This document shows positions 17,491 through 32,952 of a DNA stretch of 64,000 nucleotides, one piece after another (position 1 is the stretch's first letter; each line of letters begins with the position of its first letter). Source of the DNA: Acidimicrobiaceae bacterium (GTDB lineage Bacteria; Actinomycetota; Acidimicrobiia; Acidimicrobiales; RAAP-2). Under the pieces are notes generated by a model that made no database searches, was not told the DNA's origin, and saw only the letters and a list, made by a program, of their open reading frames with translations. The stretch spans positions 44,895-108,894 of the forward strand of contig DAIDKS010000031.1 in the NCBI GenBank assembly GCA_027449885.1. Reading direction: 5' to 3'. The position numbers and the translations under genes are program-made.

Positions 17491-17501
17491 GGGCGCCCCG
17501 A

Positions 17502-17515
17502 GGACGGAGCCGTCC
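17502..17515. terminator. Short GC hairpin between convergent genes
   Basis: GGACGG-AG-CCGTCC between the MMPL stop and the SDR stop. It could stop transcription from either side, but there is no T tract, so the call is weak. It also marks the left edge of the lower-GC region. Confidence 0.35.
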
Positions 17516-17519
17516 CCCG

Positions 17520-18278
17520 CTAGTCCATGAAGGCTCCGCCGTTCACCGCGATCGACTCCCCGGTGACGAAGGCGGCGTCCTCGGACACGAGGAAGGCAAC
17601 TACGCGCGCGACGTCCTCGGGTGACTCCAGGCGGCGGAGTGGAGTGTCGTCGATCCAGAGTTGGCGCACCGCCTCCGGCTCAATCCCGCGGAGTCCCGCC
17701 TCCCACGCCAACTCACGATCCTGCATTGCGGTGGTGACGTAGCCCGGGCAGACGCTGTTCACGCGAATCCCGTGGGCCGCGAGCTCGAAGGCCATGGCCT
17801 GCGTAAGTCCCAGCACGGCGAACTTGCTCGCCACGTAGTCCGAGAGAAAGGGGATGCGGCCCTGCTTAGCGGCCATCGAGGCGGTGTTCACGATCACTCC
17901 CCGGATGCCGTGCGACACCATAGCCCGGGCGGCCGCCTGGCTGGCGAAGAAGACTCCGTAGGTGTTCACTTCGAACGTGCGGCGCAGATCGCTCGGGGAG
18001 ACGTCGAGAAACCGCTGCATCTTCGAGATCCCCGCGTTGGAGACCCACACGTCCAGCCCCCCCTCGTGATCGACCACGGCGTCGACAACGGCGGCGCACG
18101 CCTCGGGGTCGGTGACGTCAAGAGTCATCGAAGATCCCCCGACCTCCTCGGCGACGCGCGCCGCCGCGATCGGATCGACGTCGGTAACGACAACCCGCAT
18201 CCCGCGGTTCGCGAGTTCGCGGGCGATGGCTGCACCGATACCTGATCCGGCTCCGGTGATCACGGCGATGGATGTCAT
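17520..18278 (-). CDS. Short-chain dehydrogenase/reductase (SDR), last gene of the deoR operon
   Basis: 252-aa classical SDR: TGAGSGIGAAIA nucleotide loop, VSNAGISK, catalytic Ser in VNTASMAAKQG, Y-x3-K in YVASKFA and the CPGYV segment. Acidic residue after beta 2 (VVTDVDPIAA) favours NAD(H). ATG at 18278, with AGGAG six bases upstream, overlaps the kinase stop (ATGA). The ORF track begins 100 codons too early. In this operon it probably oxidises a polyol or sugar before or after phosphorylation by the FGGY kinase; the substrate is not known. Codon use is less GC-extreme than in the MMPL gene next door. Confidence 0.9.
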   Translation of the reverse strand: MTSIAVITGAGSGIGAAIARELANRGMRVVVTDVDPIAAARVAEEVGGSSMTLDVTDPEACAAVVDAVVDHEGGLDVWVSNAGISKMQRFLDVSPSDLRRTFEVNTYGVFFASQAAARAMVSHGIRGVIVNTASMAAKQGRIPFLSDYVASKFAVLGLTQAMAFELAAHGIRVNSVCPGYVTTAMQDRELAWEAGLRGIEPEAVRQLWIDDTPLRRLESPEDVARVVAFLVSEDAAFVTGESIAVNGGAFMD

Positions 18279-19762
18279 GGGTTGCTCCTCGCTAGAGCGT
18301 GGGACAGGGACGTCGTCACGCGGGTGAACTCCTTGAACTGCGCGTAGCGCTCGTCGTAGAGGGCGGTGCGCTCGGGATGGGGCGCAATGACCTCGTCGGG
18401 CGGCAACGCTCCCTTGACGTAGTCGCCATCGGGAATCAGCCCGACACCCACTCCGGCGAGTACGGCCGCCCCAAAGGAGGCCCCCGGATGCTCGACGATG
18501 GAGGCCAGTTCTCGACCCAGGACATCCGCCAGAATCTCGCGCCAGAGTCGAGAGCGCGAACCGCCATTCGTGACCCACGTCCGTTCGACGGCGAGACCCC
18601 GCTCGGCGAACACCTCGATGTGGGCACGAAATCCGTAGGCGATGGCCTCGAGGTAGGCCCGATGCAGATCGCCCCGGGTCGTTCCCAGGTGCAGGCCGAT
18701 GACGGCCCCACGAAGATCCGGATCGTGGAGCGGGGTCTTCTCGCCAAGGAAGTAGGGCAGCGCGATGAGGGCACCGGGGGTCGCCCGGAAGGCCTCAGCG
18801 TCGAGGACGTCGAGGCCCACTCCTCCGAGCAGGGCCTGTTCCCAGCGCAGCAGCGACCCGCTGGTGGCCATGCAGCCGTTGGGCAGCCACTTTCCCGCCA
18901 GTGGATGCTTGTCGAGGTAGAGGCGCGTGTCGACCAGCGGAGTCGGGCTGACCGCGAGGATGTCACCGGCTCCGCCCAACTTCACGAGGCAGTCACCCGG
19001 CTCTACCAGACCGGCGCCGTAGGCGGAGAGGACATGATCGGCGCCGCCGACGACCACGGGGGTTCCGACCGCCAGCCCCGTCGCGGCCGCGGCCGCCGAC
19101 GAGACGGATCCGACAACCTCGCCAGGACAGTGGACGGGTCCGATCAGGGGAGAGTGATCGGGCAGTCGCGCCCACACGGCGTCCAGGGGCTGGCGGTCGA
19201 GGGTGAACAGTCCACTCTCGAGCGCCCAGTTCTCCTCGACGTGGACGTCGGCGCCCAGTCGGCGCGCGAGCCAGTCGTAGGAGCCCTGAACGACCCGGGT
19301 GGCGGCCCACACGTCGGGCTCGTGACGCGCTACCCACCGGAGCGTTGGCGCCACGGACTGCTGCGAGAGGACAGACCCCGTCAGGTGCAGGAGGTCCACA
19401 TCGATCAACTCGGCGCGAAGCTCGCGGAGTTCCTCAACGGCCCGAGCGTCGTTCTGCAAGATCGCGCGACGCAGCGGGAGCCCCTCCACGTCAGTGAGGA
19501 CGACCGCCGGCACCATCCCGCTCACGGCAACGGCGGCGATATCGCCCGCGTCGACGCCGAGAGAGCCGAGCAGGTTAGGTACCAGGGTGCAGACGCCGTC
19601 CCACCACTCGGCGGGATCGGCTTCGGCCCAGCCGACCTGATCGCTGTGGAGCGCCACGGGGCGCGACGCGGATCGCAAGATACCGCGGGCGGGATCGAGG
19701 ATGACCGCCTTGACTCCGGACGACCCGAGATCGATCCCGAGGAGGAGGGTTCCCCTAGGCAC
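18275..19762 (-). CDS. FGGY-family carbohydrate kinase (xylulokinase-like)
   Basis: 495 aa, normal for FGGY kinases. N-terminal ATP/sugar domain begins LLGIDLGSSGVKAVILD; the hinge and second domain show VVGGADHVLSAYGAG, CLVKLGGAGDILAV and the C-terminal GGSRSRLWREILADVLG with the HPGASFGAAVLAG segment. It phosphorylates a sugar, ketose or polyol. The closest familiar member is xylulokinase, but the partners (BtpA/SgcQ-like protein, SDR, DeoR regulator) suggest a less common substrate. GTG start at 19762 lies inside the end of the BtpA gene (8-base overlap). Confidence 0.88.
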   Translation of the reverse strand: MPRGTLLLGIDLGSSGVKAVILDPARGILRSASRPVALHSDQVGWAEADPAEWWDGVCTLVPNLLGSLGVDAGDIAAVAVSGMVPAVVLTDVEGLPLRRAILQNDARAVEELRELRAELIDVDLLHLTGSVLSQQSVAPTLRWVARHEPDVWAATRVVQGSYDWLARRLGADVHVEENWALESGLFTLDRQPLDAVWARLPDHSPLIGPVHCPGEVVGSVSSAAAAATGLAVGTPVVVGGADHVLSAYGAGLVEPGDCLVKLGGAGDILAVSPTPLVDTRLYLDKHPLAGKWLPNGCMATSGSLLRWEQALLGGVGLDVLDAEAFRATPGALIALPYFLGEKTPLHDPDLRGAVIGLHLGTTRGDLHRAYLEAIAYGFRAHIEVFAERGLAVERTWVTNGGSRSRLWREILADVLGRELASIVEHPGASFGAAVLAGVGVGLIPDGDYVKGALPPDEVIAPHPERTALYDERYAQFKEFTRVTTSLSHALARSNP

Positions 19763-20558
19763 TTCGCGCGGCGTCGACGAAGCGCTTCACGCGTTCGGGA
19801 TCGACCTCGTTCCACGTGTAGCCGTCACGCTTGAGATCGCTGCCAACGATGCACCCGTCGGCGTACTTGAGGTAGCTCTGGATCGTCTCGGCCTTCGCTC
19901 CCGTGTTGAGTAGGACAGGAACCTCCGGGTCGAGGGCCTCGCGAACGTCGGCGACCGTGCTCACTTCGGGCTCACTGCCCGCCATCGGACCGGAGACGAG
20001 GATGACGTCGGCCAGACTGGAGACCACCGTCGAGCGAGCCATCGCGGCGGGTGAGCGGCCGCCGACGCTGGAGGCGAACTCGGGCGTGACGTTCGCGAAA
20101 ACGGCGAGGTCGTCGCGACCGAATGCTCGGCGATTCCGCAACAGCGTCGCCGCGTCGGGAGCCCACAGCCCCATGTCGGACTCCCACAGGCCGGTCACGA
20201 CCTCGCGCAAGAAGACCGCGTCGGTGGCCACCGCGATGGCCAGGGCGCACTGGGCATCCCACAGGAAGTCCACCCCGTAGGGGCGGTCGTCGGGACGGCA
20301 CTCGGTCACCACGCGCGACATGACGGCGGATGCTTCGAGTCCCGCGTGGAGCTGGTACGGGCGGTCGCCCTCGTTGCAGAAGAGGATGGCGTCGAATCCC
20401 CCCTCCCGTAAGACCTCGACGTCGCGCTTCACGTGATCGATGAGTCCCGTGACTCCGGCGGCGGAGTCGAAGAGGGGGGTTCCCGGCAGAGGCGGCACGT
20501 GCGCCATAGCGATGAGGGGCTTCGCCGCCTTCGGGAAGATGCTGCGGAAACGGGACAT
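19755..20558 (-). CDS. BtpA/SgcQ family TIM-barrel protein
   Basis: 267 aa. Resembles the BtpA (photosystem I biogenesis factor)/SgcQ family: LIAMAHVPPLPGTPLF near the start, GFDAILFCNEGDRPYQ, YGVDFLWDAQCALAIA, ADVILVSGPMAG and ILLNTGAKAE-like VPVLLNTGAKAETI, ending with ADGCIVGSDLKRDG. Bacterial members in sugar operons are likely aldolase- or isomerase-like barrels, but no reaction is established as far as I know. ATG at 20558 overlaps the deoR stop (TGATG), and the kinase follows with an 8-base overlap, so it probably works in the same pathway. Confidence 0.82.
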   Translation of the reverse strand: MSRFRSIFPKAAKPLIAMAHVPPLPGTPLFDSAAGVTGLIDHVKRDVEVLREGGFDAILFCNEGDRPYQLHAGLEASAVMSRVVTECRPDDRPYGVDFLWDAQCALAIAVATDAVFLREVVTGLWESDMGLWAPDAATLLRNRRAFGRDDLAVFANVTPEFASSVGGRSPAAMARSTVVSSLADVILVSGPMAGSEPEVSTVADVREALDPEVPVLLNTGAKAETIQSYLKYADGCIVGSDLKRDGYTWNEVDPERVKRFVDAARSA

Positions 20559-21343
20559 CAGGGAGATTCCTCCTCTACTGGTTCAACGTGAATGACCTCA
20601 ACGTCCAGTTCTCGAAGGCGCTGGATCGTCTCGTTGCTGGGAGCGGCATTCGTGATCAGGACGTCGATGACGTTGGCAGGAGCGACGCTGACGAGCGCCA
20701 CGCGTCCAATCTTGCTGGCGTCCGCAAGGACGATGCGGCGTCGACCCGAGGCGATGGCCGCCCGCTTCACTTCGGCGTCGTCCAGGTTGTACTCGGTAAG
20801 ACCCGCCTCGACGCTGATGCCGGCGACGCCGAGGAAGACAGCGTCGCAGTGCAGGTCCACGAACGAATCCACGGCGCGTGCGCCAACCAGACTCATCTCC
20901 CCCTGACGGACCACCCCACCCGTCACGATGGTGCGTACGAGGGGCTTCGTGGCGAGTTCGGTGGCGATGAGCAACGAGCTCGTGAGGGCGGTGATCGCCA
21001 GGTCGTCGGGAATGGCCCGCGCCAACTGGTGGGCCGTGGAGCCGACGTCCAGGATGATCGTCTCGTTGGGTCGCAGCGCGGCGGCTGCGGCGGCGCCGAT
21101 CCGGCGCTTCGCCTCCGCCTGCTCGGCGGATCGCTGGAGGACCGGGGGCTCGAAGCCACGCGCCTGGATGGAGATTGCCCCACCTCGGACACGACGAGCC
21201 AGACCCTCTAGCTCGAGCAGTTCGAGGTCACGACGGATGGTCATCTCACTGGTGCCGTAGTCGGCGGCCATCTCGGCGATCGTCGCCTCACCCTCGTGGC
21301 GCAGGCGCTCCACAATGATGGTGCGGCGCGCCTTAGAGTCCAT
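20558..21343 (-). CDS. DeoR/GlpR-family transcriptional regulator
   Basis: 261 aa. N-terminal winged helix (RRTIIVERLRHEGEATIAEMAADYGTSEMTIRRDLELLE, helix-turn-helix about 20-45), then a DeoR-type phosphosugar-sensing domain with ILDVGSTAHQLAR, VTGGVVRQGEMSLVG, FLGVAGIS and the D-x-E-VKRA motif (DDAEVKRAAI). Such proteins normally repress and are released by a phosphorylated intermediate. Its own promoter carries a palindrome also found before the binding-protein gene, so it probably controls both operons. The -10 box ends six bases before the ATG, which suggests a nearly leaderless message. Confidence 0.92.
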   Translation of the reverse strand: MDSKARRTIIVERLRHEGEATIAEMAADYGTSEMTIRRDLELLELEGLARRVRGGAISIQARGFEPPVLQRSAEQAEAKRRIGAAAAAALRPNETIILDVGSTAHQLARAIPDDLAITALTSSLLIATELATKPLVRTIVTGGVVRQGEMSLVGARAVDSFVDLHCDAVFLGVAGISVEAGLTEYNLDDAEVKRAAIASGRRRIVLADASKIGRVALVSVAPANVIDVLITNAAPSNETIQRLRELDVEVIHVEPVEEESP

Positions 21344-21347
21344 GGCT

Positions 21348-21361
21348 CCACACTATGTGAG
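21348..21361. promoter_or_regulatory. Predicted DeoR operator at the deoR promoter
   Basis: CACA-CTA-TGTG palindrome, the same 12-base core (CACACTATGTGA) found before the binding-protein operon. It overlaps the -10 box of the deoR promoter. A lone TCACATT half-site lies about 45 bases upstream (21397-21403), matching the position of a full second palindrome at the other promoter. Confidence 0.65.
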
Positions 21362-21378
21362 TTTTTAACATTCATCAA
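21350..21378 (-). promoter_or_regulatory. Promoter of the deoR-btpA-kinase-SDR operon
   Basis: On the minus strand TTGATG (21373-21378), 17-base spacer, TAGTGT (21350-21355). The same arrangement, TTGCTG-N17-TAGTGT, precedes the binding-protein gene. The -10 box ends six bases before the ATG at 21343, so the transcript would have almost no leader. Confidence 0.55.
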
Positions 21379-21434
21379 CCCCCTTTTGAGTAAATCTCAC
21401 ATTAATAACGACTACTTGTCACACCCACGACGGT

Positions 21435-22424
21435 CTACTCTGTCGACTCCCAACTCATCCACCCGGTACGTGTGCTCCAATGTCTGCCCGAGTCGAGGAG
21501 TCGGATGACCGACTCCTGCAGCCTCGTCGGGCCACCGGCGTGCGGCCGCAAGACGAACTCTCTCACGTCGTGGTCCCCGACGACCTCCCCAGGGACCAGT
21601 GTGAAGCGCCGGGCGAAGCGCAAGAGACGACTCTCGGACCCGAGGATGTCGGCAAGGTGCGGGTCGAATATCCAGGACTGACACGTCACCAAACGTCGAT
21701 GCGGAGCCGGCCACGTTCGCTGGAGCAAGTCGCGCGCCTGCCCCAGCGATTGGTCAACAGCTCCTTCCGAGAGATCGGCACCGTCGGGGATGTGGAGCCC
21801 GACCACCGGATCACCCCATCGAAAGCCGACACCCCGAACGTCAGCCTCCTCGGGCGGGTACCAGGGCGAGGGGGACAGCGTCCCGATCCCCAACCTCAGA
21901 CGGTGGTACTGGAGAGATCCGATGTTGACCAGGTCGCCCCGCAGCGCCAGCATGATCCACCACCCGGCACTGAGTCCCGAGGTGCCGAACTGACGCCGAT
22001 GCACCGCCGCGTGTCGCGCCACGGTCGCGAGGGTGTCCACGATGACGTCGGACGGGAAGCCCTCGGAGATCAGGAAGTCGCGCGTGCCAGACGCCGCGAG
22101 GCCCGCCAGGTAGAGGAACAGGAGCCGTCCGACCACCCCCGTCTCGTCGAGATCCCGGACGATCAGGACGGGGTCGTCTGGCCGTCCCCGCTGCTCCTCG
22201 ACGACGGCCCAAAGCCCCGCGAGCAGGCGCACCCACGCGTCGCTCGCGAGCACATCGCCCCAACGGGTGACGAGCTCGTCACGGTCGCTCAGCGCAAGAC
22301 CCATCGCCGCTAACTCCGACGAGAGACGTGAGGGCGAGACCGAGCGCACGCGGTCCACATCGATCCGCGGTGCCGCGCGAACGTGCTCCCAGAGCACTTC
22401 CGGAATCGGACGGGACGGATTCAC
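21435..22424 (-). CDS. GNAT-like acyltransferase (NAT_N + GNAT_C domain type)
   Basis: 329 aa, cytosolic. Not a classical single-domain GNAT: it resembles the two-domain acyltransferase family described by the NAT_N and GNAT_C Pfam models. Supporting segments are the C-terminal GLHIPDGADLSEGAVDQSLGQ, a Cys-containing TCQSWIFDPHL and LLRFARRFTLV. The acyl donor and acceptor are unknown. The GTG start overlaps the GH20 stop (GTGA), making it the last gene of the binding protein-Dpp-GH20 operon, so an amino-sugar N-acyl step is a reasonable inference. A 91-base gap separates it from deoR. Confidence 0.72.
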   Translation of the reverse strand: MNPSRPIPEVLWEHVRAAPRIDVDRVRSVSPSRLSSELAAMGLALSDRDELVTRWGDVLASDAWVRLLAGLWAVVEEQRGRPDDPVLIVRDLDETGVVGRLLFLYLAGLAASGTRDFLISEGFPSDVIVDTLATVARHAAVHRRQFGTSGLSAGWWIMLALRGDLVNIGSLQYHRLRLGIGTLSPSPWYPPEEADVRGVGFRWGDPVVGLHIPDGADLSEGAVDQSLGQARDLLQRTWPAPHRRLVTCQSWIFDPHLADILGSESRLLRFARRFTLVPGEVVGDHDVREFVLRPHAGGPTRLQESVIRLLDSGRHWSTRTGWMSWESTE

Positions 22425-23938
22425 AGATCGAGTGGGCGGAATCGGACGCCCATCGCGCTCAGTCGCCCGAGATGATCCTCCAGGCGAGGTCGGAAGTCAG
22501 CGAGGTCGGCGACGGTGCCCCACACCACCTCGGCGAACGCGCTGAGGCGAGGGAAGGCCATGTAGTCGAGGTGATCCCGTGTTGCGATGTACTCCGTCCA
22601 CAGTTGAGCCTGGGCACCTCGAACGCGCGCGGCCATCGCGGCGTCGAAGTCGTCGGGCACGACGCGAAAGGCGTACACCCGCTCCCAGGTGGTCACGCGC
22701 GGCGGCGATCCTATGGCGACCGGCTCGCCAGGGGCGTCACTGTTCAGCCAGTCAAAGTAGACCCACTGCATGGGAGCCATGATCACGTCGAGTCCACGTC
22801 GTGCCGCTCGCCGACCCTCTTCCACGTTGCGCCACGCAACGATGACCGTCCCATCGGGCACCACGGCGTCGAGCACCTCGTCCCAAGCGAGGACCTCGTG
22901 ACGCCCCGCTCGAAGTGCGTGGGCCATGACGGCGGTGAAGAGTCCTTGGAGTCCCCGTTCGTCGGCCAGGTGGTGTTCTGCCATGAGAGTCACTCGGCGA
23001 GGGTCGACCTCCCACTCACGAGTCGGGCACTCGTCGCCCCCAATGTGGAAGGGAGCCCCGGGGAAGAGCTCGGCAACCGAGCGTACGACGTCGCGTGCGA
23101 AGCGGCGCGTGATCGGCTCCAGGTTGAGCACGTGCTCGGAAATGCCCCAACGGGTCCAGACTCCCGTGCCCGGAGGTGCCGAACCCAGCTCGGGGTAGGC
23201 GGCGATCGCCGCCTGGGCGTGCCCGGGGAGGTCAATCTCCGGGACGATCACGACGTGTCGACGCGCGGCATAGTGCCGCAATTCCACCAACTCGCGTCGC
23301 GTGAAGAACCCACCGTGCGGCTGCCCATCGTCGCGCCCCTCGGACTCGTGGCCCGCCGGAGACGACGGACGCCACGCACCCACCTCGGTCAAGCGGGGCC
23401 ACGCCGGCACCTCGACGCGCCACCCTTGATCATCGTTGAGATGCAGGTGGAGCCGGTTCAGCCGATGCGCGGCTACTTGGTCGATGAACCGCCGGACCAC
23501 GGCGCCGTCGAAGAAGTGGCGAGCGACGTCGAGATGGGCCCCGCGCCAGGCGAACTGCGGCGCGTCGTTGATCTCGACGTGCGGCACCGGCCACTCCGTG
23601 AGCGTTCCTTCATGACCCCACAGTTCATGGGGACCGAGTTGACGCAGAGCGCCCAGAGCGTAGAAGGCTCCCGCCCCGTCCGCCGCGCTGACGACCACCC
23701 GGCTGGACACTCGCATCCGGTACGCCTCCGCCCCAAGTGTGGGGTCCCAGCGGACGTCGAGATCGGGCTCCTCCGTCACCCGCTCCACGCGCCACCCCAC
23801 GGCCGCATCCAGGTCGTCGGCGAAGAGTTCAACCACGTCGTCAAACCGCACATCGGATCGGACGCGCAACGGAGATCGCCAGACGAGCGTGCCCTCACCC
23901 CGACGAAGTTCTCGAGGTCGCGGAAGCGGCGTCCTCAC
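22421..23938 (-). CDS. GH20 beta-N-acetylhexosaminidase, cytoplasmic
   Basis: 505 aa. GH20 retaining enzyme using substrate-assisted catalysis. The catalytic Asp-Glu pair is in FHIGGDECP (about D302-E303). An N-terminal GH20b-like domain ends near FYALGALRQL; the barrel begins WRGAHLDVARHFF and includes LHLHLNDDQGWRVEV, VPEIDLPGHAQA and AWDEVLD. No signal peptide, so it should cleave imported oligosaccharides. The start is the GTG overlapping the ATPase stop (GTGA); the ORF track starts 38 codons too early. It lies between the Dpp-type transporter and the acyltransferase genes, pointing to a GlcNAc- or GalNAc-containing substrate. Confidence 0.92.
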   Translation of the reverse strand: MRTPLPRPRELRRGEGTLVWRSPLRVRSDVRFDDVVELFADDLDAAVGWRVERVTEEPDLDVRWDPTLGAEAYRMRVSSRVVVSAADGAGAFYALGALRQLGPHELWGHEGTLTEWPVPHVEINDAPQFAWRGAHLDVARHFFDGAVVRRFIDQVAAHRLNRLHLHLNDDQGWRVEVPAWPRLTEVGAWRPSSPAGHESEGRDDGQPHGGFFTRRELVELRHYAARRHVVIVPEIDLPGHAQAAIAAYPELGSAPPGTGVWTRWGISEHVLNLEPITRRFARDVVRSVAELFPGAPFHIGGDECPTREWEVDPRRVTLMAEHHLADERGLQGLFTAVMAHALRAGRHEVLAWDEVLDAVVPDGTVIVAWRNVEEGRRAARRGLDVIMAPMQWVYFDWLNSDAPGEPVAIGSPPRVTTWERVYAFRVVPDDFDAAMAARVRGAQAQLWTEYIATRDHLDYMAFPRLSAFAEVVWGTVADLADFRPRLEDHLGRLSAMGVRFRPLDL

Positions 23939-24903
23939 TCGCCCGTGACCGCGAAGCACGCGACGTCCTGATCCGTCGAGACGGCCCTCAATCGCGGTGT
24001 CGCCACGCGGCACGCGTCGGTAGCGAGCGGGCATCGTGGCGCGAAGCGGCAACCGGGACCGGGGTTGATGACCTTGGGCGGTTCACCGAGATCCGTTAGC
24101 GATGCGTCATCCGAGAGCGGTAGGCGGGGGTCGGGCGCGGTCGACATGAGGAGTCGCGTGTAGGGGTGCTGCGGATGGCTGATCACGTCCTCGGTGCGTC
24201 CCGTCTCGACGATGCGGCCGGCGTAGAGCACGATCATCCGATCCGCGACGTACCTGGCGCTCGCCAGGTCGTGGGTGATGTACAGAATCGACACGCCTTC
24301 GCGATCGCGCAGGTCCCGCATCACGTTTAGGAGGCCGATGCGAATCGAGACGTCCAGCATCGAGACGGGCTCATCGGCCAGGATGAGCGACGGACGTGAC
24401 GCCAGGGCTTGTGCGAAACCCAGGCGCTGACGCTGGCCGCCCGAGAGTTCGTGCGGGAAGCGGCGCAGGACCTCGGCGCCGGGAAGGAGCCCCACCCTCT
24501 CCAGGAGTGAGACGGCCGCATCGTGACGCTGCTCGCCCGACAGCTCCGGTCGGTGCAGTTTGAGGGCTCGCTCGATCCCGTGACCCACCCGGAGAACTGG
24601 ATTGATGGAACCGAACGGATCCTGAAAGACCATAGGCATACGTCCGCGCACGCGACGGCTCGGCCGTCGTCCGACCGACTGGCCCTCAAAGAGGATCCGC
24701 CCCTCGGACGGTGGATAGAGCCCCGCGAGGACACGCGCAATGGTGGACTTGCCCGAGCCCGACTCGCCCACGAGTGCCACGATCTCCGAGGCACCCACCT
24801 CGAAGGTCACGTCATCGATCGCGTGCAGAGTCCCCCGCGTGCGCAATCCACCGACGCGGAACAATCGGGTGATGCTTTCGACGGAGAGGACGGCGTTGCT
24901 CAC
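23935..24903 (-). CDS. Oligopeptide/dipeptide-type ABC transporter ATPase (DppF/OppF-like)
   Basis: 322 aa. Walker A VGESGSGKST, Q-loop VFQDPFGSIN, signature LSGGQRQRLGFAQAL, Walker B LILADEPVSMLD, switch His in YITHDLA. The C-terminal OppD/F extension ends with a Cys-rich segment (GPGCRFAPRCPLATDAC). It pairs with the next ATPase as a heterodimer driving the two permeases. GTG start overlaps the upstream ATPase stop (GTGA). Dpp/Opp-type systems also carry oligosaccharides, as in chitobiose uptake by Vibrio, which fits the GH20 gene that follows. Confidence 0.93.
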   Translation of the reverse strand: MSNAVLSVESITRLFRVGGLRTRGTLHAIDDVTFEVGASEIVALVGESGSGKSTIARVLAGLYPPSEGRILFEGQSVGRRPSRRVRGRMPMVFQDPFGSINPVLRVGHGIERALKLHRPELSGEQRHDAAVSLLERVGLLPGAEVLRRFPHELSGGQRQRLGFAQALASRPSLILADEPVSMLDVSIRIGLLNVMRDLRDREGVSILYITHDLASARYVADRMIVLYAGRIVETGRTEDVISHPQHPYTRLLMSTAPDPRLPLSDDASLTDLGEPPKVINPGPGCRFAPRCPLATDACRVATPRLRAVSTDQDVACFAVTGE

Positions 24904-25865
24904 GGCACCTCCAGCGGGTGAACCAGGTGGCAACGAACTGAACGACTGTCGTCGCTCAGGAGTTCGGGCCGCGTCGTGCGGCAGGCGTCTGTAGCGTTCG
25001 GGCACCGCGGAGCGAAGAGACAGCCCGGGGGCGGCTCAACAAGTGACGGCGGATTGCCCGGGATGCCCGTCAATGGCTTCAGGTCTCCGAGCAGCGACGG
25101 GAAAGCGTCCATCAGTCCGACCGAGTACGGATGCTGCGGGTCGTCGAAGACGGCCCTCGTCGAGCCGAGCTCGACGACCTCCCCGGCGTACATGACGGCC
25201 AGGCGATCGGAGAAGTGCGACACCACGCTCATGTCGTGGGTCACGAACAGGACGGAGAAGCCGAGCCGTTCCCGGAGCGCGTGAATCTGTCGCATCAGCG
25301 ATCGCTGCGCCACGACGTCCAGAGCGGATGTGGGCTCGTCCATGATCACGAGCTTCGGTTCGAGCAGGAGGGCCATGGCGATCATGGCGCGCTGGCGCAT
25401 TCCCCCGGACAACTGGAAGGGGTAGCTCTTGAGGTGCGCTGGGTCAATCGACACCATGGATAAGACTTCGGCACTGCGGTCAGCAATCTGACGATCGTCC
25501 CACTCGGTGTGCGCGCGGCAGACGTCGGCTAGCTGCGCACCGATAGAGAGGGTCGGATTGAGCGCGTTCATCGCGCTCTGCATCACGACCGAGACGTCGC
25601 GCCATCGGTGGCGGCGCAACTCTTCAGGCTTGAGTGCGGTCAAATCCAGCCCATCGAACTGGACCACGCCCCCGGTCATCCGAGCCGGATAGCTCAGCAA
25701 CTGTGCGATTGCGAAGAGCAGGGTCGACTTCCCGCAGCCGGACTCCCCCACGATGGCGAGGAACTCACCCCGGTCGAGGTCGAGAGAGACGCCGTTGACC
25801 GCGCGAGCCGGTCCGGCAGGAGTTTCGTACTCCACGTAGAGATCGTGAACGTGCAGGAGACTCAC
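24900..25865 (-). CDS. Oligopeptide/dipeptide-type ABC transporter ATPase (DppD/OppD-like)
   Basis: 321 aa. Walker [12 protein letters not shown]-loop [11 protein letters not shown], signature [15 protein letters not shown], Walker [13 protein letters not shown], switch FVTHDMS. The C-terminal region carries the Cys-rich oligopeptide-type extension ([17 protein letters not shown]). Partner of the DppF-like ATPase; both overlap their neighbours by four bases (GTGA), so the transporter is translated as a coupled set. Confidence 0.93.
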
Positions 25866-26764
25866 GCGCGGACCGCCCTTCGCGCGCGCCGTCGCGACAC
25901 GGGCCGCAGCGCAGGATTGGCCACCTCGTCAAAGGCGTAGTTGAGGAGGGCCAGCGCACTCCCGAGGACGGCGATCGCGATGCCGGGTGCCAGAGCCCAC
26001 AGTGGCAGTCCCGTCGCGAGGGCCTCGTTGTTCTGCGCCCAGTAGAGCATGGTGCCCCACGACTGCGAGTTGATGTTGCCTAGTCCCACGAACTGGAGTC
26101 CCGAGGCGGCCAAGACGGCGTAGAGGGCGGCACCGAGGAAGTTCGCCACGATCAACGACGTCATCGGTGGGAGCAATTCGACGAAGATCACGTATAGGGG
26201 CGATTCCCCCCGCGCTCGCGCCGCAAGGAGGTAGTCCCGATTGCGAAGCGAGAGCGCCTGGACCCTTAGTTGACGGGCCCCGTACGACCACCCCGTGACG
26301 ACGAGGACGAAGACCATGAGCCAGAAGCTCGCGCTCTTCAAGTAGGCGGTTATCACGATGATCAGCGGGAAAGTCGGGATCACGAGCACGACGTCGGTGA
26401 ACATCGAGAGCAGGTCGTCGATCCAGCCGCCGAAGTACGCAGCGCTCACGCCGATGACAACGGACAGCACCGTCGAGAGAAGCCCCACAATCAACGCAAT
26501 GAACACGCTCTGGCGGGTGCCCGCCATCACCTGACTGAAAACGTCTTGACCGAAGGACGTGGTGCCGAGTGGATGTGACCACGACAGGCCCACCCCTGGC
26601 GTGTAGGCCTCGGCCGACGGGTTGTCGGGGGTGAACCACTGCGGGACGACCGCGATGACGAGAAGGATGAAGAGTATGACGGCCCCGACGAGGGCCTTCT
26701 TGTCGCGCCGTAGGAACCGGCCCACGGATCCGAGCCGACGCCCCAAAGTACGTAGCGCGATCAC
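25862..26764 (-). CDS. ABC transporter permease, DppC/OppC-like
   Basis: 300 aa. One N-terminal helix (ALVGAVILFILLVIAVV) with the OppC_N arrangement, then SHPLGTTSFGQDVFSQVMAGTRQS, five further helices and the ATPase-coupling EAA-type loop (LSLRNRDYLLAARARGESPLYVIFVELLP region). GTG start overlaps the DppB stop (GTGA). Forms the second half of the membrane channel. Confidence 0.93.
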   Translation of the reverse strand: MIALRTLGRRLGSVGRFLRRDKKALVGAVILFILLVIAVVPQWFTPDNPSAEAYTPGVGLSWSHPLGTTSFGQDVFSQVMAGTRQSVFIALIVGLLSTVLSVVIGVSAAYFGGWIDDLLSMFTDVVLVIPTFPLIIVITAYLKSASFWLMVFVLVVTGWSYGARQLRVQALSLRNRDYLLAARARGESPLYVIFVELLPPMTSLIVANFLGAALYAVLAASGLQFVGLGNINSQSWGTMLYWAQNNEALATGLPLWALAPGIAIAVLGSALALLNYAFDEVANPALRPVSRRRARRAVRA

Positions 26765-27744
26765 CGGCTGCTCCTGGTACGCGGGTCGAGGATCGCCGTC
26801 GCCACGTCCGAGATGAAGATGGCGAGGAGCACGGCGATGGTGATGAGGAGGAACAGCGACTGCATCAGCGGGTAGTCCTCATTTTGCACGGCCTGCAACA
26901 GCATGAAACCGAGACCGGGATAGTTGAAGACGTACTCCACCAGGATGGCTCCGGAGATGACAAAGCCCAGCGACATAGCGAATCCGGTGAGGTTCGGCAG
27001 CAGAGCGTTTCGGCCCGCGTACTGCCACAGGATCCGGCGAGGCTTCAACCCCTTCGCCCGCGCCATCTTCACGTAGTCCTCGGCGACGACCGTGATCATG
27101 TTGTTGCGCATGGTCAATATCCACCCGCCGATGGAGGTGATGATGATCGTGAAGGCGGGCAGTATCGCGTGGACCAGGACGTCCCCCACGAAGGACCACG
27201 TCATCGCCGGCGTCGCCGTTTCCGAGTAGCCGCCGAGAAGTGGGAACCAGTTCAGCGTGAGGGCGAAGAGCCAGATGGAAAGAAGCCCGACCCAGAAGTA
27301 GGGGAAGGCGGAGATTACGACGAACGTTGGTGGGAGGACGGAGTCCACCAGCCCTCCGCGACGCCACGCGGCGACTGCTCCGATCGCGGTACCGACGATG
27401 AAGGCAACGACCGTGCTCAGGCCGACCAGTCCGAGCGACCAGGGCAGAGCGCGCATGATGACTGTCGAGACGGGGATCGGGAAGTAACTCGTTGAGATCC
27501 CGAGGTTCCCGCGAAAGGTATTGCCGACGTACTGCACGTATGCCGAGATCAGACTCTCGTGGGAGTTGACCCCGAACGCAACCTCTAGTGCGTGGAGGGC
27601 GGCGGGGTTCACGTGCCCGTGGAACTTGGCCATCATGGCGACGGCTGGATTGCCGGGCATGAGCCGGGGGATGAAGAAGTTCACCGTGAGGGCAACCCAC
27701 AGGGCAACCAGTAGGAAGCCCACTCGGCGAATGAGAAACTTCAT
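26761..27744 (-). CDS. ABC transporter permease, DppB/OppB-like
   Basis: 327 aa with six helices. The N-terminal FLIRRVGFLLVALWVALTVNFFIPRLMPGNP pattern is characteristic of DppB-type permeases, as is the coupling loop (EDYVKMARAKGLKPRRILWQYAGRNALLP region) and the VEYVFNYPGLGFMLLQA segment. ATG at 27744, 37 bases after the binding-protein stop, with GGGGAG immediately before it. Second gene of the operon. Confidence 0.93.
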   Translation of the reverse strand: MKFLIRRVGFLLVALWVALTVNFFIPRLMPGNPAVAMMAKFHGHVNPAALHALEVAFGVNSHESLISAYVQYVGNTFRGNLGISTSYFPIPVSTVIMRALPWSLGLVGLSTVVAFIVGTAIGAVAAWRRGGLVDSVLPPTFVVISAFPYFWVGLLSIWLFALTLNWFPLLGGYSETATPAMTWSFVGDVLVHAILPAFTIIITSIGGWILTMRNNMITVVAEDYVKMARAKGLKPRRILWQYAGRNALLPNLTGFAMSLGFVISGAILVEYVFNYPGLGFMLLQAVQNEDYPLMQSLFLLITIAVLLAIFISDVATAILDPRTRSSR

Positions 27745-27781
27745 CTCCCCGGCTCAGCTCAGCACTCGGTCGTCGCGTCGA

Positions 27782-29455
27782 CTAGTTGATCGGCTTCAGA
27801 TTGTCGAGTATGTAGCCCCAGTCCGGCATGTTGTACAAGGCTGGCTGCGCGTACGGGTTGGACGCCGTCGGGAAGCCCGAGAACTGCTTGTAGTTGTACT
27901 GGAACCAGTCGACTTCCTCGAGGACCGGGATAACCGGGGCCTGCTGCACCATGACCATCTGGAGCTTGTTCACGATGGCGTGCTGGAGCGTCGCGTTCGT
28001 CGTCGTCCCGTACTGGTTGAGCAGCGCGTCCACCGTCTTGTTGGAGAAGCGCTCCCAGTTGGAGGCGGCGGCAGTGCCGATCGGTGCCGAGTTCTTCGAG
28101 AACAGCCACTGACGCAGTTCGTAGAACGGGGTCGGGCCACCGGTCTCCACGTTGTAGGCCAACTGGAACTTCCCGGCGTAGACGTCGGAGTAGAAGTTAG
28201 TCGACGCAATCGGGTTGACGGTCGCGGCGATGCCCACCTTGTTGAGCTCCTGCGCGATCACCTGCACAGTCGCAACCCAGTCGGAGTAGCCACCGTTGGT
28301 GATGATCGAAAGGCTCAACTTCTTGCCGTTCTTGGCGAAGATGCCGTCGCTGCCCTTCTTGTACCCGGCAGACTTCAGCAGACTGACGGCCTTCGCCGGG
28401 TCATAACTGGAGCCCTGAGCCTTGACGGCCGCCGATGACGACCACGCCGAGAAGGTCGGAGCCACGATGCCCGTCTGACTCGCCGGCGGCTCGTAGCCGT
28501 ACTCACCGATCTTGGACACGGTTGGACGATCAATCGCGTAACTGATCGCTTGGCGTACCTTGACGTTGTTCAGTGGCGCCTGAGTGAGGTTCGGGAACAG
28601 CGACACGTTCGCGACCGGCGGGAACCAATAGGCGTTTCCCGGCTTCTTCGCAACGTAGTAGCTCTTGATGTTCGGGATGAACTGAGCGCCCCACTGCGAC
28701 TGGCCCGTGGCGAGGTACTCGTTACAGGTGTTGTTCGAGAGGAAGGCGGGCATGTTGACCGTCTTCACCACGGCCTTGCCGGCCTGCCAGTAGTGGGGGT
28801 TGGCCGTCCACTGAATGTTCTGCGGCGTGCACTTGTTCATCAGGTATCCACCCGTCCCGATGGGGTGTGAGACCGGGTTGGACACCGGGTTGGAGATCTT
28901 GCTCCAAATGTGCTCGGGAACGATCGGCACCTGTCCGGCGACGTAGTAGAAGTACGGAACTGCCGGCGCCGAGAAGTCGAAAACGACCTTGTTCGCCCCC
29001 GCTTGAGTGACGCTCGAGAGCACCGACCACACCGCGTTGGCGTCGAGGGCCGGGTACTTCTTCAGCAGGTTGAACGTGTAGACGACGTCCGCCGCGCTGA
29101 AGGGCTGCCCGTCCGACCACTTCACACCGCTGCGAATCGTGAAGGTCAGCGTCTTGTTCCCATTGCTCCACGCCGACCCGGTGGCCAACCACGGCGTCAC
29201 CTTGCCGCTCTGCAGCGAGTTGACGAACTCGAGCGTCTCGTACGTCACGCCCACCGAATAGGGTGACGACGACGCCAAGAACGGGTTGAACGAGCAGGGC
29301 CACAGCATCCCCTGTTCGTTCGCCAGGTTCAGTGGGACTTGCGGGGCCGCTGCGGCCACGCTCGTTCCCAATAGCCCCGGGGTCACCGAGAACAACAGCC
29401 CGGCGATCATCGCAAAGGACGAGCCGATCAGGCCCAACCTTGACTTCCTTCTCAC
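27782..29455 (-). CDS. Family 5 extracellular solute-binding protein (non-lipidated)
   Basis: 557 aa. SBP_bac_5 fold of peptide and oligosaccharide binding proteins: GVTYETLEFVNS, VKWSDGQPFSAADVVYTF and KVRQAISYAIDR are diagnostic. The signal peptide is basic at the start (MRRKSRLG), then hydrophobic, with an Ala-rich likely cleavage site (SVAAAAPQ). No lipobox Cys is seen, unusual for an actinobacterial ABC receptor. The GTG at 29455 is chosen because GGAGGAG lies seven bases upstream; the track's longer ORF adds 35 implausible residues. First gene of the Dpp-GH20-acyltransferase operon, with about 105 bases of leader. Confidence 0.92.
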   Translation of the reverse strand: MRRKSRLGLIGSSFAMIAGLLFSVTPGLLGTSVAAAAPQVPLNLANEQGMLWPCSFNPFLASSSPYSVGVTYETLEFVNSLQSGKVTPWLATGSAWSNGNKTLTFTIRSGVKWSDGQPFSAADVVYTFNLLKKYPALDANAVWSVLSSVTQAGANKVVFDFSAPAVPYFYYVAGQVPIVPEHIWSKISNPVSNPVSHPIGTGGYLMNKCTPQNIQWTANPHYWQAGKAVVKTVNMPAFLSNNTCNEYLATGQSQWGAQFIPNIKSYYVAKKPGNAYWFPPVANVSLFPNLTQAPLNNVKVRQAISYAIDRPTVSKIGEYGYEPPASQTGIVAPTFSAWSSSAAVKAQGSSYDPAKAVSLLKSAGYKKGSDGIFAKNGKKLSLSIITNGGYSDWVATVQVIAQELNKVGIAATVNPIASTNFYSDVYAGKFQLAYNVETGGPTPFYELRQWLFSKNSAPIGTAAASNWERFSNKTVDALLNQYGTTTNATLQHAIVNKLQMVMVQQAPVIPVLEEVDWFQYNYKQFSGFPTASNPYAQPALYNMPDWGYILDNLKPIN

Positions 29456-29564
29456 AGTGAGACTCCTCCCTCCGGACCCCCTCGGTCCCGGATTCCCCAA
29501 CGTGACCGCCGAACCTGCGGAGTCCGGGACTCTCGTCCCACCCCCCCACCTGGTGACCACACCG

Positions 29565-29577
29565 TCACACTATGTGA
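29565..29577. promoter_or_regulatory. Predicted DeoR operator 1, binding-protein operon
   Basis: Perfect palindrome TCACA-CTA-TGTGA covering the -10 box of the promoter. Identical over 12 bases (CACACTATGTGA) to the site at the deoR promoter. Confidence 0.68.
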
Positions 29578-29595
29578 AGAGTTAACACTCAGCAA
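29567..29595 (-). promoter_or_regulatory. Promoter of the binding protein-Dpp-GH20-acyltransferase operon
   Basis: Minus strand TTGCTG (29590-29595), 17-base spacer, TAGTGT (29567-29572). Start of transcription is expected near 29560, about 105 bases before the GTG. Base composition here is strikingly AT-rich for the window. Confidence 0.58.
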
Positions 29596-29612
29596 GCCAG
29601 CCCTGATCAATA

Positions 29613-29629
29613 TTCACATTGATTGTGAA
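29613..29629. promoter_or_regulatory. Predicted DeoR operator 2, upstream of the -35 box
   Basis: Perfect palindrome TTCACA-TTGAT-TGTGAA, using the same TCACA/TGTGA half-sites as operator 1 but with a 5-base spacer. Lies about 17 bases upstream of the -35, so two sites flank the promoter, permitting cooperative binding. Confidence 0.6.
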
Positions 29630-29660
29630 GAACGTACGACTTTCTCGTTCATTACTGCCA

Positions 29661-30686
29661 TCATGCGCTCGTAGTCACCTTAGACAGCACCGGCGACGAA
29701 TCGATTGAACGCCCCCGACGCTCGCCGAGGCGCAGGGTCAACACCTGTCCGACGACGACTTCGAGAAGGCCCGTAAGCCAGTTCGGCGTCCCGAACGGCA
29801 ACTCGAGGTCAACGTCGGCCCCGAGCGGGTGGCGGCCGCGAGGACGGATGACGAGAGTCCTCGCACCGAGCGCGCGACCCGTCGCGAGGAGCTCCTCGGC
29901 CACCGCGTCGCTCAACTCGTCAGTCAGGATGAGAGTGAGTGCGGTGTCGGTAGCGTCCGCGCCGATGGGTCCATGGAGGTAGTCGGGTGCGGCGAACGCT
30001 TCGGCGCGTAGTCCGGAGACCTCGCGAACCTTGAGTGCGATCTCGCACGCGGTGGCGTAGCCCACCCCCCGGCCCACCATCGTGAGTCCGCGCGGCGCAT
30101 CGATCAGTTCGACTGGCATCTCCGCGCCGAGGGCCCATTCGATGACCTCGCCCACGGCGTCGGCGGTCGCATCCAGACCGTCGAGTGGCTCCGAGCCGAG
30201 TGCCGAAACGATCTGGCCCAGGGCGTGCCAGGTGGCGGTAAAGGTCTTCGTCGAGGCAATGGCGAGTTCGGGGCCCACCCCGAGGTCGATCACCACGTCG
30301 GACTCGAGAGCGAGCGGCGAGTCGAGCGAGTTCGTGATCGCGCCGGTCGGTCGCCCTTGTTCCCTCCCAGCACGGATCACGTCGATCATGCCGGGTGAAC
30401 GGCCCGACTGCGAGATGGCTAGGACTCCCGCACCGCGCAGCCCCGGGACGCGCACCCCCTCGAACAGTGATGGCGCAGCGAGCGCCACCACTAGACCGGC
30501 ACGTTGCCCAGCCAGGTACTGGAAGAACCGCGCGGCGTTGTCCGATGATCCCCGGGCCGCCACCAGGGCGTAGTCCAGTCCTCGCCAAGCCTCGGCAATC
30601 CGCGCCGCCGCCTCGGCTCCGCCGTCAGCCCTGGCCCGCAACAGTTCGCCCTGACTACGGATCTCGGATTCGAAGTTCGTCGTCAC
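29661..30686 (-). CDS. SIS-domain protein, GlmS-C/AgaS-like sugar-phosphate isomerase or deaminase
   Basis: 341 aa with two SIS domains and no glutaminase domain. N-terminus FESEIRSQGELL matches the E-x2-QP region of AgaS/NagB-II-type proteins; sugar-phosphate loops are VAARGSSDNAARFFQY and AISQSGRSPGMIDV, with ASTKTFTA and a C-terminal APDYLHGPIGAD. These act on glucosamine- or galactosamine-6-phosphate, or related substrates. GTG at 30686 is preferred, preceded by GGGGGA; the ORF track begins 12 codons earlier. Downstream of the ROK kinase by 48 bases, so kinase plus deaminase would convert imported amino sugar to a glycolytic intermediate. Confidence 0.82.
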   Translation of the reverse strand: MTTNFESEIRSQGELLRARADGGAEAAARIAEAWRGLDYALVAARGSSDNAARFFQYLAGQRAGLVVALAAPSLFEGVRVPGLRGAGVLAISQSGRSPGMIDVIRAGREQGRPTGAITNSLDSPLALESDVVIDLGVGPELAIASTKTFTATWHALGQIVSALGSEPLDGLDATADAVGEVIEWALGAEMPVELIDAPRGLTMVGRGVGYATACEIALKVREVSGLRAEAFAAPDYLHGPIGADATDTALTLILTDELSDAVAEELLATGRALGARTLVIRPRGRHPLGADVDLELPFGTPNWLTGLLEVVVGQVLTLRLGERRGRSIDSSPVLSKVTTSA

Positions 30687-30734
30687 CGTCCCCCTATCGC
30701 GAGCACGTAGCGTAGCCCGCACGCCGGGTATCGA

Positions 30735-31499
30735 TCACGCTCGGTCGCGAGCGAAGAGTCGACGAGCACCCCGCAGGGTAACCACGGCGTCATTGATCAC
30801 AACGTGTGACGCGAGGTCGGCCACATCACTGGGCTCAAGGTGCCGCGCATTCCCTCCCCCGAAGTGGACGATGTCAGCGTCGAACTCCGCGACGAACCCT
30901 CGCGCGGCCCGGCGCAAGTTGGCCATCCACGCCCGTGGATCGCGCGCCCGAGCCGGTTCGCCGAGGGACTCATCGTAGGTCTCTCCGTCAACGAAGTCCT
31001 CGGCGCCCACATCGCGAACCCGCACCCTATCGCCATCGACGACGAGAGCAATCCCGAAACCCGTGCCCAAGGTGAACACGAGCTCCCGCCCCTCACCGAG
31101 AGTGGCACCCAGGGCCGCGAGAGTTGCGTCGTTCACCACACGCACATCACGACCGGTTGCCTCTCGCAAACGGGCCTGCAGGTCGAATCCCCTCCACTGA
31201 ACATCGATCTCCGCATCGACCGCGGTGTCGATCCCCCCGATTCGCGAGAGGTTCCCGGGCTCGAGGACGCACCCATCCTCCATGTCGCCTGGGAAGCCCA
31301 CCCCCACGTGCTCGCACGGCGCTTCGTCGATCATCGCGGCCAGCGTCGCCACCATGCGTTCGGGAGGACAGGGGTAGGGCGTGGCGACTCGCTGGAGAGG
31401 GCCGATCAGGGCCCCCTCCGCATCGAGGCGCCCCACCTTGATCGACGTCGCTCCAACGTCGACGCTCAGTATGCACGAATCAAAGGAAGCACTCGGCAT
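30735..31499 (-). CDS. ROK-family sugar kinase (polyphosphate-glucokinase-like)
   Basis: 254 aa. ATP/polyphosphate loop SVDVGATSIKVGRLD, sugar loop GVGFPGDMEDG, catalytic Asp in VVNDATLAALG and FTLGTGFGIAL. There is no helix-turn-helix, so it is an enzyme rather than a ROK repressor. The typical ROK zinc motif (CxCG-type) is absent, which together with the compact size points toward the PPGK branch. Substrate probably glucose or an amino sugar. ATG at 31499 chosen over a GTG one codon earlier. First gene of the ROK-SIS pair, divergent from the MFS gene. Confidence 0.8.
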   Translation of the reverse strand: MPSASFDSCILSVDVGATSIKVGRLDAEGALIGPLQRVATPYPCPPERMVATLAAMIDEAPCEHVGVGFPGDMEDGCVLEPGNLSRIGGIDTAVDAEIDVQWRGFDLQARLREATGRDVRVVNDATLAALGATLGEGRELVFTLGTGFGIALVVDGDRVRVRDVGAEDFVDGETYDESLGEPARARDPRAWMANLRRAARGFVAEFDADIVHFGGGNARHLEPSDVADLASHVVINDAVVTLRGARRLFARDRA

Positions 31500-31504
31500 C
31501 ACGT

Positions 31505-31525
31505 GGCAGTGTAGATAACTCTGCC
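31505..31525. promoter_or_regulatory. Inverted repeat in the ROK/MFS divergent promoter
   Basis: GGCAGtGT-AGATA-ACtCTGCC: imperfect 8-base arms with one mismatch and a 5-base spacer. It contains TATCTA on the minus strand and TAGATA on the plus strand, either of which could act as a -10 box. It differs from the TCACA/TGTGA sites, so another regulator may act here. Confidence 0.4.
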
Positions 31526-31558
31526 GCTCATCTCACCTCCGTAGACTCGCGATCGGCC

Positions 31559-32740
31559 GTGACATCCCCCCACTCCAACTCCTCCGATCCACCGACGATG
31601 GTGCACCTGACGAGGATGGGCTTCGTGGTGCTCACTGCCGCTTTCGTGCTTGGTGGAGCCACCACCTCACTCTTCGGACCTCTCCTAGTGACTTTCTCGG
31701 AACGCTTCCACCTCTCGACTGCGGGCGCCGGCCGGATTCTCGCGGTTTACTTCGGCGGCGGTGTCCTGGGCGTTCTGCCGGGCTGGGTAGGAGTCCGACG
31801 TTTCAGCGGCCGCGCGGTCCTCAACGCCGCCCTCATGACGATGGCCTTCGGGGCTGCGCTGGTGTCCCTCGCTTCGCACTGGATCCTCGCGGAGGTCGGG
31901 GCGGGGGTGCTCGGAGTCGGCTTCGGCGCCTCGGGCATTACCTTGAACACGCTGTTGACTCGTACCGCCGTCGAAGTGCGAGCTCACATGCTCAGCGTTG
32001 GCAACGCAGGCTTTGGAGTCGGTGCCGTCGTCACCCCCCTCGCCCTGATCGGCGTCCACCCGATCCACTACGCCCTACTCGTCAGCATCCTCGGCATCGC
32101 CTCGCTCGCCCTCGCCCTGACAACTCGTGGCGTCGTCGCACCACCCCACCGCGACGAGACCCGGGGTACGACGCACCTCGACACCGGCCGACGTCGCAGG
32201 CTGATCGGTCTCTTCATCGGCGGCTACGTCCTCTACGAGTCTGTCGAGTCCGGGGCCTCGGGATGGATGGCCAGCCAGCTCCACGGCACCGGTTACGGCG
32301 ACCGAACGGCGATTCTCGTGACGGCCGGTTTCTGGGCCGGGCTCGCCCTGGCTCGCGCCTTTGGTGGAGCACTCCACCGCCGCTTCCAGGCGCCGGCACT
32401 CGTGATCGGCAGCCTCGTGCTGGCCACCGTCGGTGCGCTCGGCGTTCGAGTCCACGTTCTCGCGCCGGTGGCCTACCCATTCCTGGGACTGGTGATTGCC
32501 TCGATCTACCCCATGGGGCTGATGTGGTTCTCGACATTGTCGCCGCACGACAGCGATGCCACGTCAGCGATCATCCTCTCGGCCATGGCCGGGAGCGTCA
32601 TCGGTCCCGCCCTCATCGACCTCCTGGTCGCCCGCTGGGGCGTCGGGGTGGTTCCTCTCAGTGTCGCGCTCTTCGCGGCGCTCGACGGGGCCGTCTTCTC
32701 GATTGCCCTCGTGAAGGGCTCTGCCCGTACGTCGCCGTAG
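31559..32740 (+). CDS. MFS transporter, sugar-permease-like
   Basis: 393 aa with about twelve hydrophobic helices. The first loop (YFGGGVLGVLPGWVGVRRFSGR) resembles the MFS signature between helices 2 and 3, and the layout recalls FucP-like or fucose/hexose carriers. The start is uncertain: GTG at 31559 or ATG at 31598 (MVHLTRMGF), which lies just before the first helix. Divergent from ROK-SIS and the right-hand end of the lower-GC region. It may take up the free monosaccharide or export a product. Confidence 0.78.
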   Translation: MTSPHSNSSDPPTMVHLTRMGFVVLTAAFVLGGATTSLFGPLLVTFSERFHLSTAGAGRILAVYFGGGVLGVLPGWVGVRRFSGRAVLNAALMTMAFGAALVSLASHWILAEVGAGVLGVGFGASGITLNTLLTRTAVEVRAHMLSVGNAGFGVGAVVTPLALIGVHPIHYALLVSILGIASLALALTTRGVVAPPHRDETRGTTHLDTGRRRRLIGLFIGGYVLYESVESGASGWMASQLHGTGYGDRTAILVTAGFWAGLALARAFGGALHRRFQAPALVIGSLVLATVGALGVRVHVLAPVAYPFLGLVIASIYPMGLMWFSTLSPHDSDATSAIILSAMAGSVIGPALIDLLVARWGVGVVPLSVALFAALDGAVFSIALVKGSARTSP

Positions 32741-32904
32741 CGCTCGGCGTCATTACGTCCTCCCGTGGCGGTGCGGCGCGCCGCGTGCTCGTCACCACTT
32801 CCAGCTCGGCGAGGCGTCGCGATCGCCCCGCGAGGGGATCACGCCCCCGGAGTGGTGACGATCGGGCTCGAGTCCTGGCGCTGGCGTCGTCCGACTGATC
32901 GTCC

Positions 32905-32932: not shown

Positions 32933-32952
32933 ATCGTGCGTCACGCATCGTC

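Follow-up and report, generated by a model that had tools for sequence, protein, structure and literature searches.

A recently acquired catabolic island in an Acidimicrobiaceae bacterium, with a predicted DeoR regulon and a plausible role in the use of N-acylhexosaminides

Gene content and composition of the island

We have analysed a 64,000-nucleotide stretch of DNA from an Acidimicrobiaceae bacterium (contig DAIDKS010000031.1 of assembly GCA_027449885.1, positions 44,895 to 108,894; henceforth the window), which contains an island of ~15 kb and fourteen genes. The window sits within a genome of 1.98 Mb (49 contigs, 84% complete; termed G000), from a genus of many species; related Acidimicrobiaceae records come from peat, fen and freshwater. 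The island lies between the convergent 3′ ends of genes encoding an MMPL protein (15310-17490, + strand) and a TetR regulator (32953-33582, - strand). The gene for an MFS carrier is divergent, and the other thirteen are on the minus strand, encoding a ROK kinase, a SIS-domain protein, a solute-binding protein (SBP), DppB, C, D and F, a family 20 glycoside hydrolase (GH20), an N-acyltransferase (NAT), a DeoR regulator, a BtpA-like barrel, an FGGY kinase and an SDR oxidoreductase (Table 1). Overlaps of stop and start codons are frequent. Pfam confirmed all fourteen names, including every one given in a first-pass annotation of this DNA, and the edges claimed there (the MMPL stop at 17490 and the MFS stop at 32740) are right.

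Table 1. Features of the island, with window coordinates, strand and supporting evidence
Feature	Coordinates	Strand	Evidence and remarks
Acquired island	17491..32952	none	between the MMPL and TetR genes
SDR oxidoreductase (polyol/sugar dehydrogenase-like)	17520..18278	-	PF13561/PF00106; nearest solved 3ak4, NADH-dependent quinuclidinone reductase, 228 bits
FGGY carbohydrate kinase, xylulokinase-like	18275..19762	-	PF00370/PF02782; nearest solved 3ifr, an unassigned FGGY kinase
BtpA/SgcQ family TIM barrel	19755..20558	-	PF03437; TIGR00259 205 of 153 bits, above family model
DeoR/AgaR-like regulator, predicted repressor of both operons	20558..21343	-	PF08220/PF00455; NF040755 AgaR 185 of 260 bits
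Predicted operator ATGTTAAAAACTCACATA in deoR promoter	21354..21371	-	between probable -35 TTGATG and -10 TAGTGT; best window match of relatives-only matrix
NAT (NAT_N + GNAT_C), Tcp24/Dbv8 family	21435..22424	-	PF18082/PF18164 above cut-off; Tcp24 E=4e-25
GH20 beta-N-acetylhexosaminidase	22421..24052	-	PF00728 1e-97; 3rcn E=5e-114; longest open reading frame, start uncertain
DppF-type ABC ATPase	23935..25005	-	PF00005 + PF08352; longest open reading frame, start uncertain
DppD-type ABC ATPase	24900..25865	-	PF00005 + PF08352
DppC-type permease	25862..26764	-	PF00528/PF12911
DppB-type permease	26761..27744	-	PF00528/PF19300
Secreted family-5 SBP	27782..29455	-	PF00496 4e-71; GTG at 29455, GGAGG upstream, signal peptide-like N-terminus; start read by eye
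Predicted operator GTGTTAACTCTTCACATA in SBP promoter	29571..29588	-	nested TTGCTG-17-TAGTGT
SIS-domain sugar-phosphate isomerase/deaminase, NagB-II-like (glucosamine-6-phosphate deaminase)	29661..30722	-	PF01380; 3hba and 8eol E=5e-30
ROK family sugar kinase	30735..31502	-	PF00480; 1woq polyphosphate/ATP glucomannokinase E=4e-17
MFS carrier, divergent from ROK	31559..32740	+	PF07690

The GC content is 0.659 across 17491-32952 against 0.729 in the remainder of the window; a 1-kb scan gave 0.61-0.69 at 17-33 kb and mostly 0.70-0.77 outside. Three 60-base lines counted by hand in the first-pass annotation (37, 40 and 45 of 60) are exact. Codon usage across 17-33 kb also departs from that of the host, the mean GC at third codon positions (GC3) being 0.804 for the 14 island genes and 0.902 for 289 other genes of the genome. 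The deviation at the codon level is strongest in the genes for SDR, ROK, GH20, DppF and SIS. By contrast, the GC3 of SBP, DppB and DppC (0.84-0.875) is near the genome level, so that the dip at 26-29 kb is due in part to amino-acid composition. Thus the lower GC that had been read as a foreign signal is real in both GC and GC3, but the lowest-GC stretch counted (SBP/DppB/DppC) is low mainly through its amino acids. We note that the first 20 kb of contigs C1 and C16 of the same genome (L111 and L121) have a GC near 0.66 with low GC3, and are possibly further acquired DNA. GC alone was rejected as proof of transfer, because part of the dip reflects amino-acid composition and these two regions are equally low.

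No tRNA and no Rfam RNA was found at the island, there is no integrase among the named genes, and the two edges share no repeat of ≥10 bp. This bears out an earlier remark that no integrase, tRNA or flanking repeat was visible at the island and its edges. An integrase-borne island or integrative and conjugative element was rejected, since integrase, tRNA target and flanking direct repeats were all not found.

Insertion site, recent acquisition and older movement

What is decisive for transfer is not GC but the empty site, the comparison of GC3 host by host, and the trees. The gene order IMPDH-NUDIX-MMPL-TetR-groEL is kept in relatives, and in G002, G077, G065, G026 and G072 MMPL and TetR are neighbours without the island; in relatives with the empty site the two genes are convergent and 12-60 bp apart. 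The full MFS-to-SDR set is found in the same order, with the position of MFS conserved and with other flanking genes, in seven other genomes (G021, G029, G031, G017, G011, G025 and G009). In the other measurable carriers the GC3 of the island and that of the host core genes differ by no more than about 0.07. In G000 the values are 0.819 and 0.977 (a gap of 0.158), making it the sole mismatched host among the carriers measured. The island tree pairs G000 with G072 at 100/100, and the alternative is rejected by the approximately unbiased (AU) test (p = 8e-6). The core tree places G000 with G002, G026 and G077 and rejects pairing with G072 (AU p = 2e-11); note that it is built from four genes of one neighbourhood, the island-bearing one, which is the main limit of the comparison and a point against acquisition.

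The empty site, the GC3 mismatch in G000 only and the reciprocal AU rejection lead to the conclusion that the island is a recent acquisition whose donor was a relative in the genus, akin to another of its species; this leaves very little room for doubt. Homologous recombination through the flanks is a possible route of entry. The claim of a foreign, sharply bounded island is therefore upheld. Finding these genes at this locus in close relatives, with congruent trees, had been named as evidence that would speak against it; the relatives sampled have either the empty site or different content there, the examined carriers have other flanks, and the trees conflict. The distribution of the island is patchy, forcing at least seven gains or losses, and some members of the genus (L035 and L045) have only the core cassette of deoR, btpA, FGGY and SDR genes. 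The existence of such core-only carriers, and the agreement of the island and core trees at the level of larger clades, would suit an old vertical inheritance, with the island ancestral to the genus, often lost, and moved within the G000 genome. We regard this as extremely improbable given that the GC3 mismatch is confined to G000 among the carriers measured, that the trees conflict strongly over placing G000 with G072, and that there is no island at the site in the sister species G002, G077 and G026.

The MMPL-groEL interval (17490-37336) holds different extra DNA in G082, G023, G073 and G064, and is a variable spot. At L131, L136, L139 and L150 the differing extra DNA gives it a hot-spot-like appearance, with no visible integrase. 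A gene for a monomeric isocitrate dehydrogenase, at 34956-37181 between NAD8 and groEL, occurs in 10 of 61 genomes of the genus and is not at the corresponding place in G002, and is thus a second, separate gain or loss beside the island.

There are also signs of older movement. L017 (GC 0.50) and L048 (GC 0.37) hold SBP-dppBCDF-btpA-FGGY-SDR, with GH20 in addition in L048. Their DppB and BtpA are 77-83% identical to those of the island, far above the 62-63% identity of IMPDH from the same genomes (IMPDH identity is 86-94% within the genus). This indicates a probable older transfer between the genus and a distant low-GC actinobacterial lineage. The same gene order recurs across many other genomes. 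The pairing of FGGY, SDR and BtpA with GH20, ROK and SIS, which had not been recognized as a pathway, is no oddity of one genome but recurs in many, and one predicted operator serves both main transcription units; the combination is a conserved, very probably co-regulated unit and not a local accident.

The core cassette occurs without GH20 beside CUT1-type sugar importers in Thermus and on Rhizobium plasmids, which suits a sugar or polyol pathway. At L059 (4703-9169) and similar Microbacteriaceae (Microbacterium) loci, a Bmp/PnrA-type importer and an amidohydrolase precede DeoR-BtpA-FGGY, which suggests that the substrate there is another one, perhaps resembling a nucleoside.

Predicted operators and the DeoR regulon

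An operator matrix was trained on the NAT-deoR regions of 24 relatives with the window excluded. Three matches of >8 bits were obtained in the window, i.e. the two operators of Table 1 and a second site before SBP at 29603-29620, and a further 351 kb of G000 DNA gave nothing >10 bits. The second SBP site lies about 31 bp upstream of the first, and deoR likewise has a second site about 31 bp upstream of its first. The pattern TGTKAANNNNTCACATA is matched at two places in the whole genome, each of them in the island, compared to 0 in the control. In both promoters the operator fills the 17-bp spacer between TTGATG or TTGCTG and TAGTGT. A scan with the sigma-70 consensus gave no match in the island, and the promoter hexamers were therefore assigned from their position and from better matches in relatives.

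The operator is also present upstream of deoR in genomes having only the core cassette, fading and then being lost as DeoR diverges; some carriers (L034, L036, L037 and L050) are without an operator before SBP. The co-occurrence strongly indicates that DeoR is the protein that would bind the predicted operators. Since the operator stands before both units, most of both branches would be joined in one predicted regulon, in which SBP-dppBCDF-GH20-NAT and deoR-btpA-FGGY-SDR are very probably switched together.

A proposed pathway and its relation to known systems

GH20 enzymes use the substrate's own 2-acetamido group in catalysis. In the island enzyme no signal peptide is seen, consistent with a cytoplasmic location, and the catalytic Asp-Glu pair in H-x-G-G-D-E is present in 32 of 32 long hits. 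The dependence on the 2-acetamido group suggests a reason for the coupling of an N-acyltransferase to GH20. The NAT gene overlaps the GH20 stop codon, lies in the operon starting at the SBP operator, and follows GH20 in every GH20 carrier in which the region is covered, except L048. An AF2 model of NAT superimposes on 4q36 with TM 0.73 (27-28% identity over the structural alignment). Relatives of the Tcp24/Dbv8 type acylate N2′ of glucosamine (PMC7567792), and a fungal fusion of a GH3 hexosaminidase with a glucosamine N-acetyltransferase is a precedent for acetylation ahead of cleavage (PMC4680927). The family is rare, being found in 9 of 397 genomes of the phylum. We note that a NAT relative adjoins a groEL gene on a Paenibacillus megaplasmid (L182, 8001-10316).

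SDR and FGGY together provide the usual chemistry of polyol breakdown, making a hexosaminyl-polyol one candidate substrate. The ATG of SDR, chosen by eye, overlaps the FGGY stop. The kinase is below the XylB equivalog cut-off (TIGR01312, 288 of 380 bits). The BtpA model has a pLDDT of 94, and it comes closest in fold to PcrB/GGGP synthase, KDPGal aldolase, ribulose-phosphate epimerase and other phosphate-binding barrels, which at TM 0.5-0.6 indicate the fold class only. A sequence search against solved structures gave only weak matches to barrels. Assignment as the BtpA of photosystem I biogenesis was rejected, the protein being below that equivalog cut-off (NF045918, 141 of 400 bits). No assigned reaction was found for BtpA/SgcQ proteins, and a literature search on BtpA with FGGY found nothing relevant.

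We assign a probability of about 0.5 to the island being an acquired catabolic unit for small beta-linked N-acylhexosaminides, comprising two modules under one DeoR switch; such a function is plausible. The steps can be set out tentatively from the gene content. DeoR would bind the paired operators in the two promoters. SBP and the Dpp-type ABC (ATP-binding cassette) system would import a hexosamine-bearing disaccharide or glycoside, and NAT may then acylate a free 2-amino group in the cytoplasm, a step proposed because of the catalytic requirement of GH20. GH20 would release the hexosamine, which the ROK kinase and the NagB-II-like SIS enzyme would channel to glycolysis. From the partner set free, a polyol or a sugar, SDR would form by oxidation a ketose that FGGY would phosphorylate, and BtpA, as a phosphate-binding barrel, may isomerize or cleave the product. 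A monosaccharide may be the cargo of the MFS carrier. GlcNAc-6-phosphate deacetylation would come from elsewhere, perhaps from a PIG-L deacetylase, since the island is not as self-contained as had been claimed: it has no GlcNAc-6-phosphate deacetylase, none is found in the genome by the NagA model, and there is no GH18 chitinase. PIG-L deacetylases were found in 19 of 19 genomes checked, and GH18 chitinases in none of these (G000 included), so that the carriers would be scavengers of small products. It is rather doubtful that this amounts to a new amino-sugar glycoside pathway, with a glycopeptide-type NAT acylating glucosaminyl groups for GH20 and BtpA acting on the partner once SDR and FGGY have converted it to a phosphorylated form.

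Several observations weigh against the hexosaminide reading, in addition to the narrow basis of the core tree. NagA (TIGR00221) is not in the island and has no match in G000 (84% complete), nor is it above cut-off in near-complete carriers including G011, G017, G019, G021 and G029, leaving a plain GlcNAc route incomplete; it is found in G009, G025 and G031, and above cut-off in 6 of 61 genomes of the genus. NAT is the fastest-evolving gene of the island (36-54% identity), and a search of seven further genomes in the phylum, of another genus in the family and of two plasmids did not find it next to GH20 outside the island. The matrix scan of the window found no operator upstream of MFS-ROK, so that membership of MFS-ROK-SIS in the regulon is tentative. 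SIS, FGGY and DeoR are all under the cut-offs of named equivalogs, SIS being a weak match to the NagB-II model (NF046059, 142 of 430 bits).

Other explanations bear on the same genes. The island might comprise two unrelated pathways that moved together and share only a regulator, i.e. a chitobiose/GlcNAc set (SBP, Dpp, GH20, ROK and SIS) and a polyol or sugar cassette (BtpA, FGGY and SDR). This would fit the many bacteria in which the core cassette stands by itself beside other importers, and its presence without the rest in L035 and L045, but both units have the same operator, promoter architecture and 31-bp spacing, and order and adjacency are kept over wide divergence, including the genome of L048 with a GC of 0.37; we think it unlikely. 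It is more unlikely still that NAT, travelling with the other genes but taking no part in catabolism, serves to modify or detoxify aminoglycosides or glycopeptides: its nearest solved relatives are indeed antibiotic-tailoring enzymes and the family is rare in the phylum, but its constant place after GH20 (L048 excepted), the overlap with the GH20 stop and its membership of the SBP operon argue otherwise. Dpp/Opp systems carry peptides, and there is no GH18 chitinase in the 19 genomes, both of which would suit a recycling or scavenging of peptidoglycan fragments, where Dpp imports GlcNAc-containing muropeptides, NAT re-acetylates them and GH20 frees GlcNAc. In line with this, one paper describes bacterial glucosamine N-acetyltransferases that recover non-acetylated residues of peptidoglycan fragments before cleavage by hexosaminidase (PMC4680927). 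Yet none of the 14 genes encodes a MurNAc etherase, amidase or peptidase, MurQ is a far poorer match to the SIS protein than NagB-II/GlmS, and SDR, FGGY and BtpA would be left unexplained, making this very improbable.

The N-acylhexosaminide unit proposed here resembles Nag-type GlcNAc/chitobiose sets in having an importer, an intracellular hexosaminidase, a sugar kinase, a NagB-II-like deaminase and a DeoR/AgaR-like regulator. It differs in having no NagA (none was found in the genome either), with no GH18 chitinase found, and in adding NAT and the BtpA/FGGY/SDR cassette under the same operator. The DeoR-BtpA-FGGY-SDR cassettes of Thermus, Rhizobium, Microbacteriaceae and freshwater actinobacteria share these core genes with the island, in many cases with the order kept, and likewise adjoin an importer; the island has a Dpp-type importer, GH20 and NAT in place of a CUT1 or other carrier. 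No characterized substrate of these cassettes was found in the literature searched. NAT shares both Pfam domains and the overall fold with Tcp24/Orf11* and Dbv8, whose family acylates glucosamine N2′, but lies in a catabolic operon rather than an antibiotic cluster. The fungal GH3 fusion RmNag (PMC4680927) likewise pairs a hexosaminidase with an amine-acetylating enzyme that enables cleavage; the putative island pair belongs to other glycosidase and acyltransferase families and is encoded separately. Like other catabolic genomic islands it has foreign composition, patchy distribution and precise insertion, but unlike them no integrase, tRNA or flanking repeat was found.

BtpA/SgcQ proteins are widespread, and a conserved operon that brings one together with a glycosidase, an importer and a single operator reduces the number of substrates to be considered and opens the function to experiment. 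The island also documents, with little ambiguity, the movement of a catabolic block within an uncultured genus of peat and freshwater actinobacteria, and across larger lineages.

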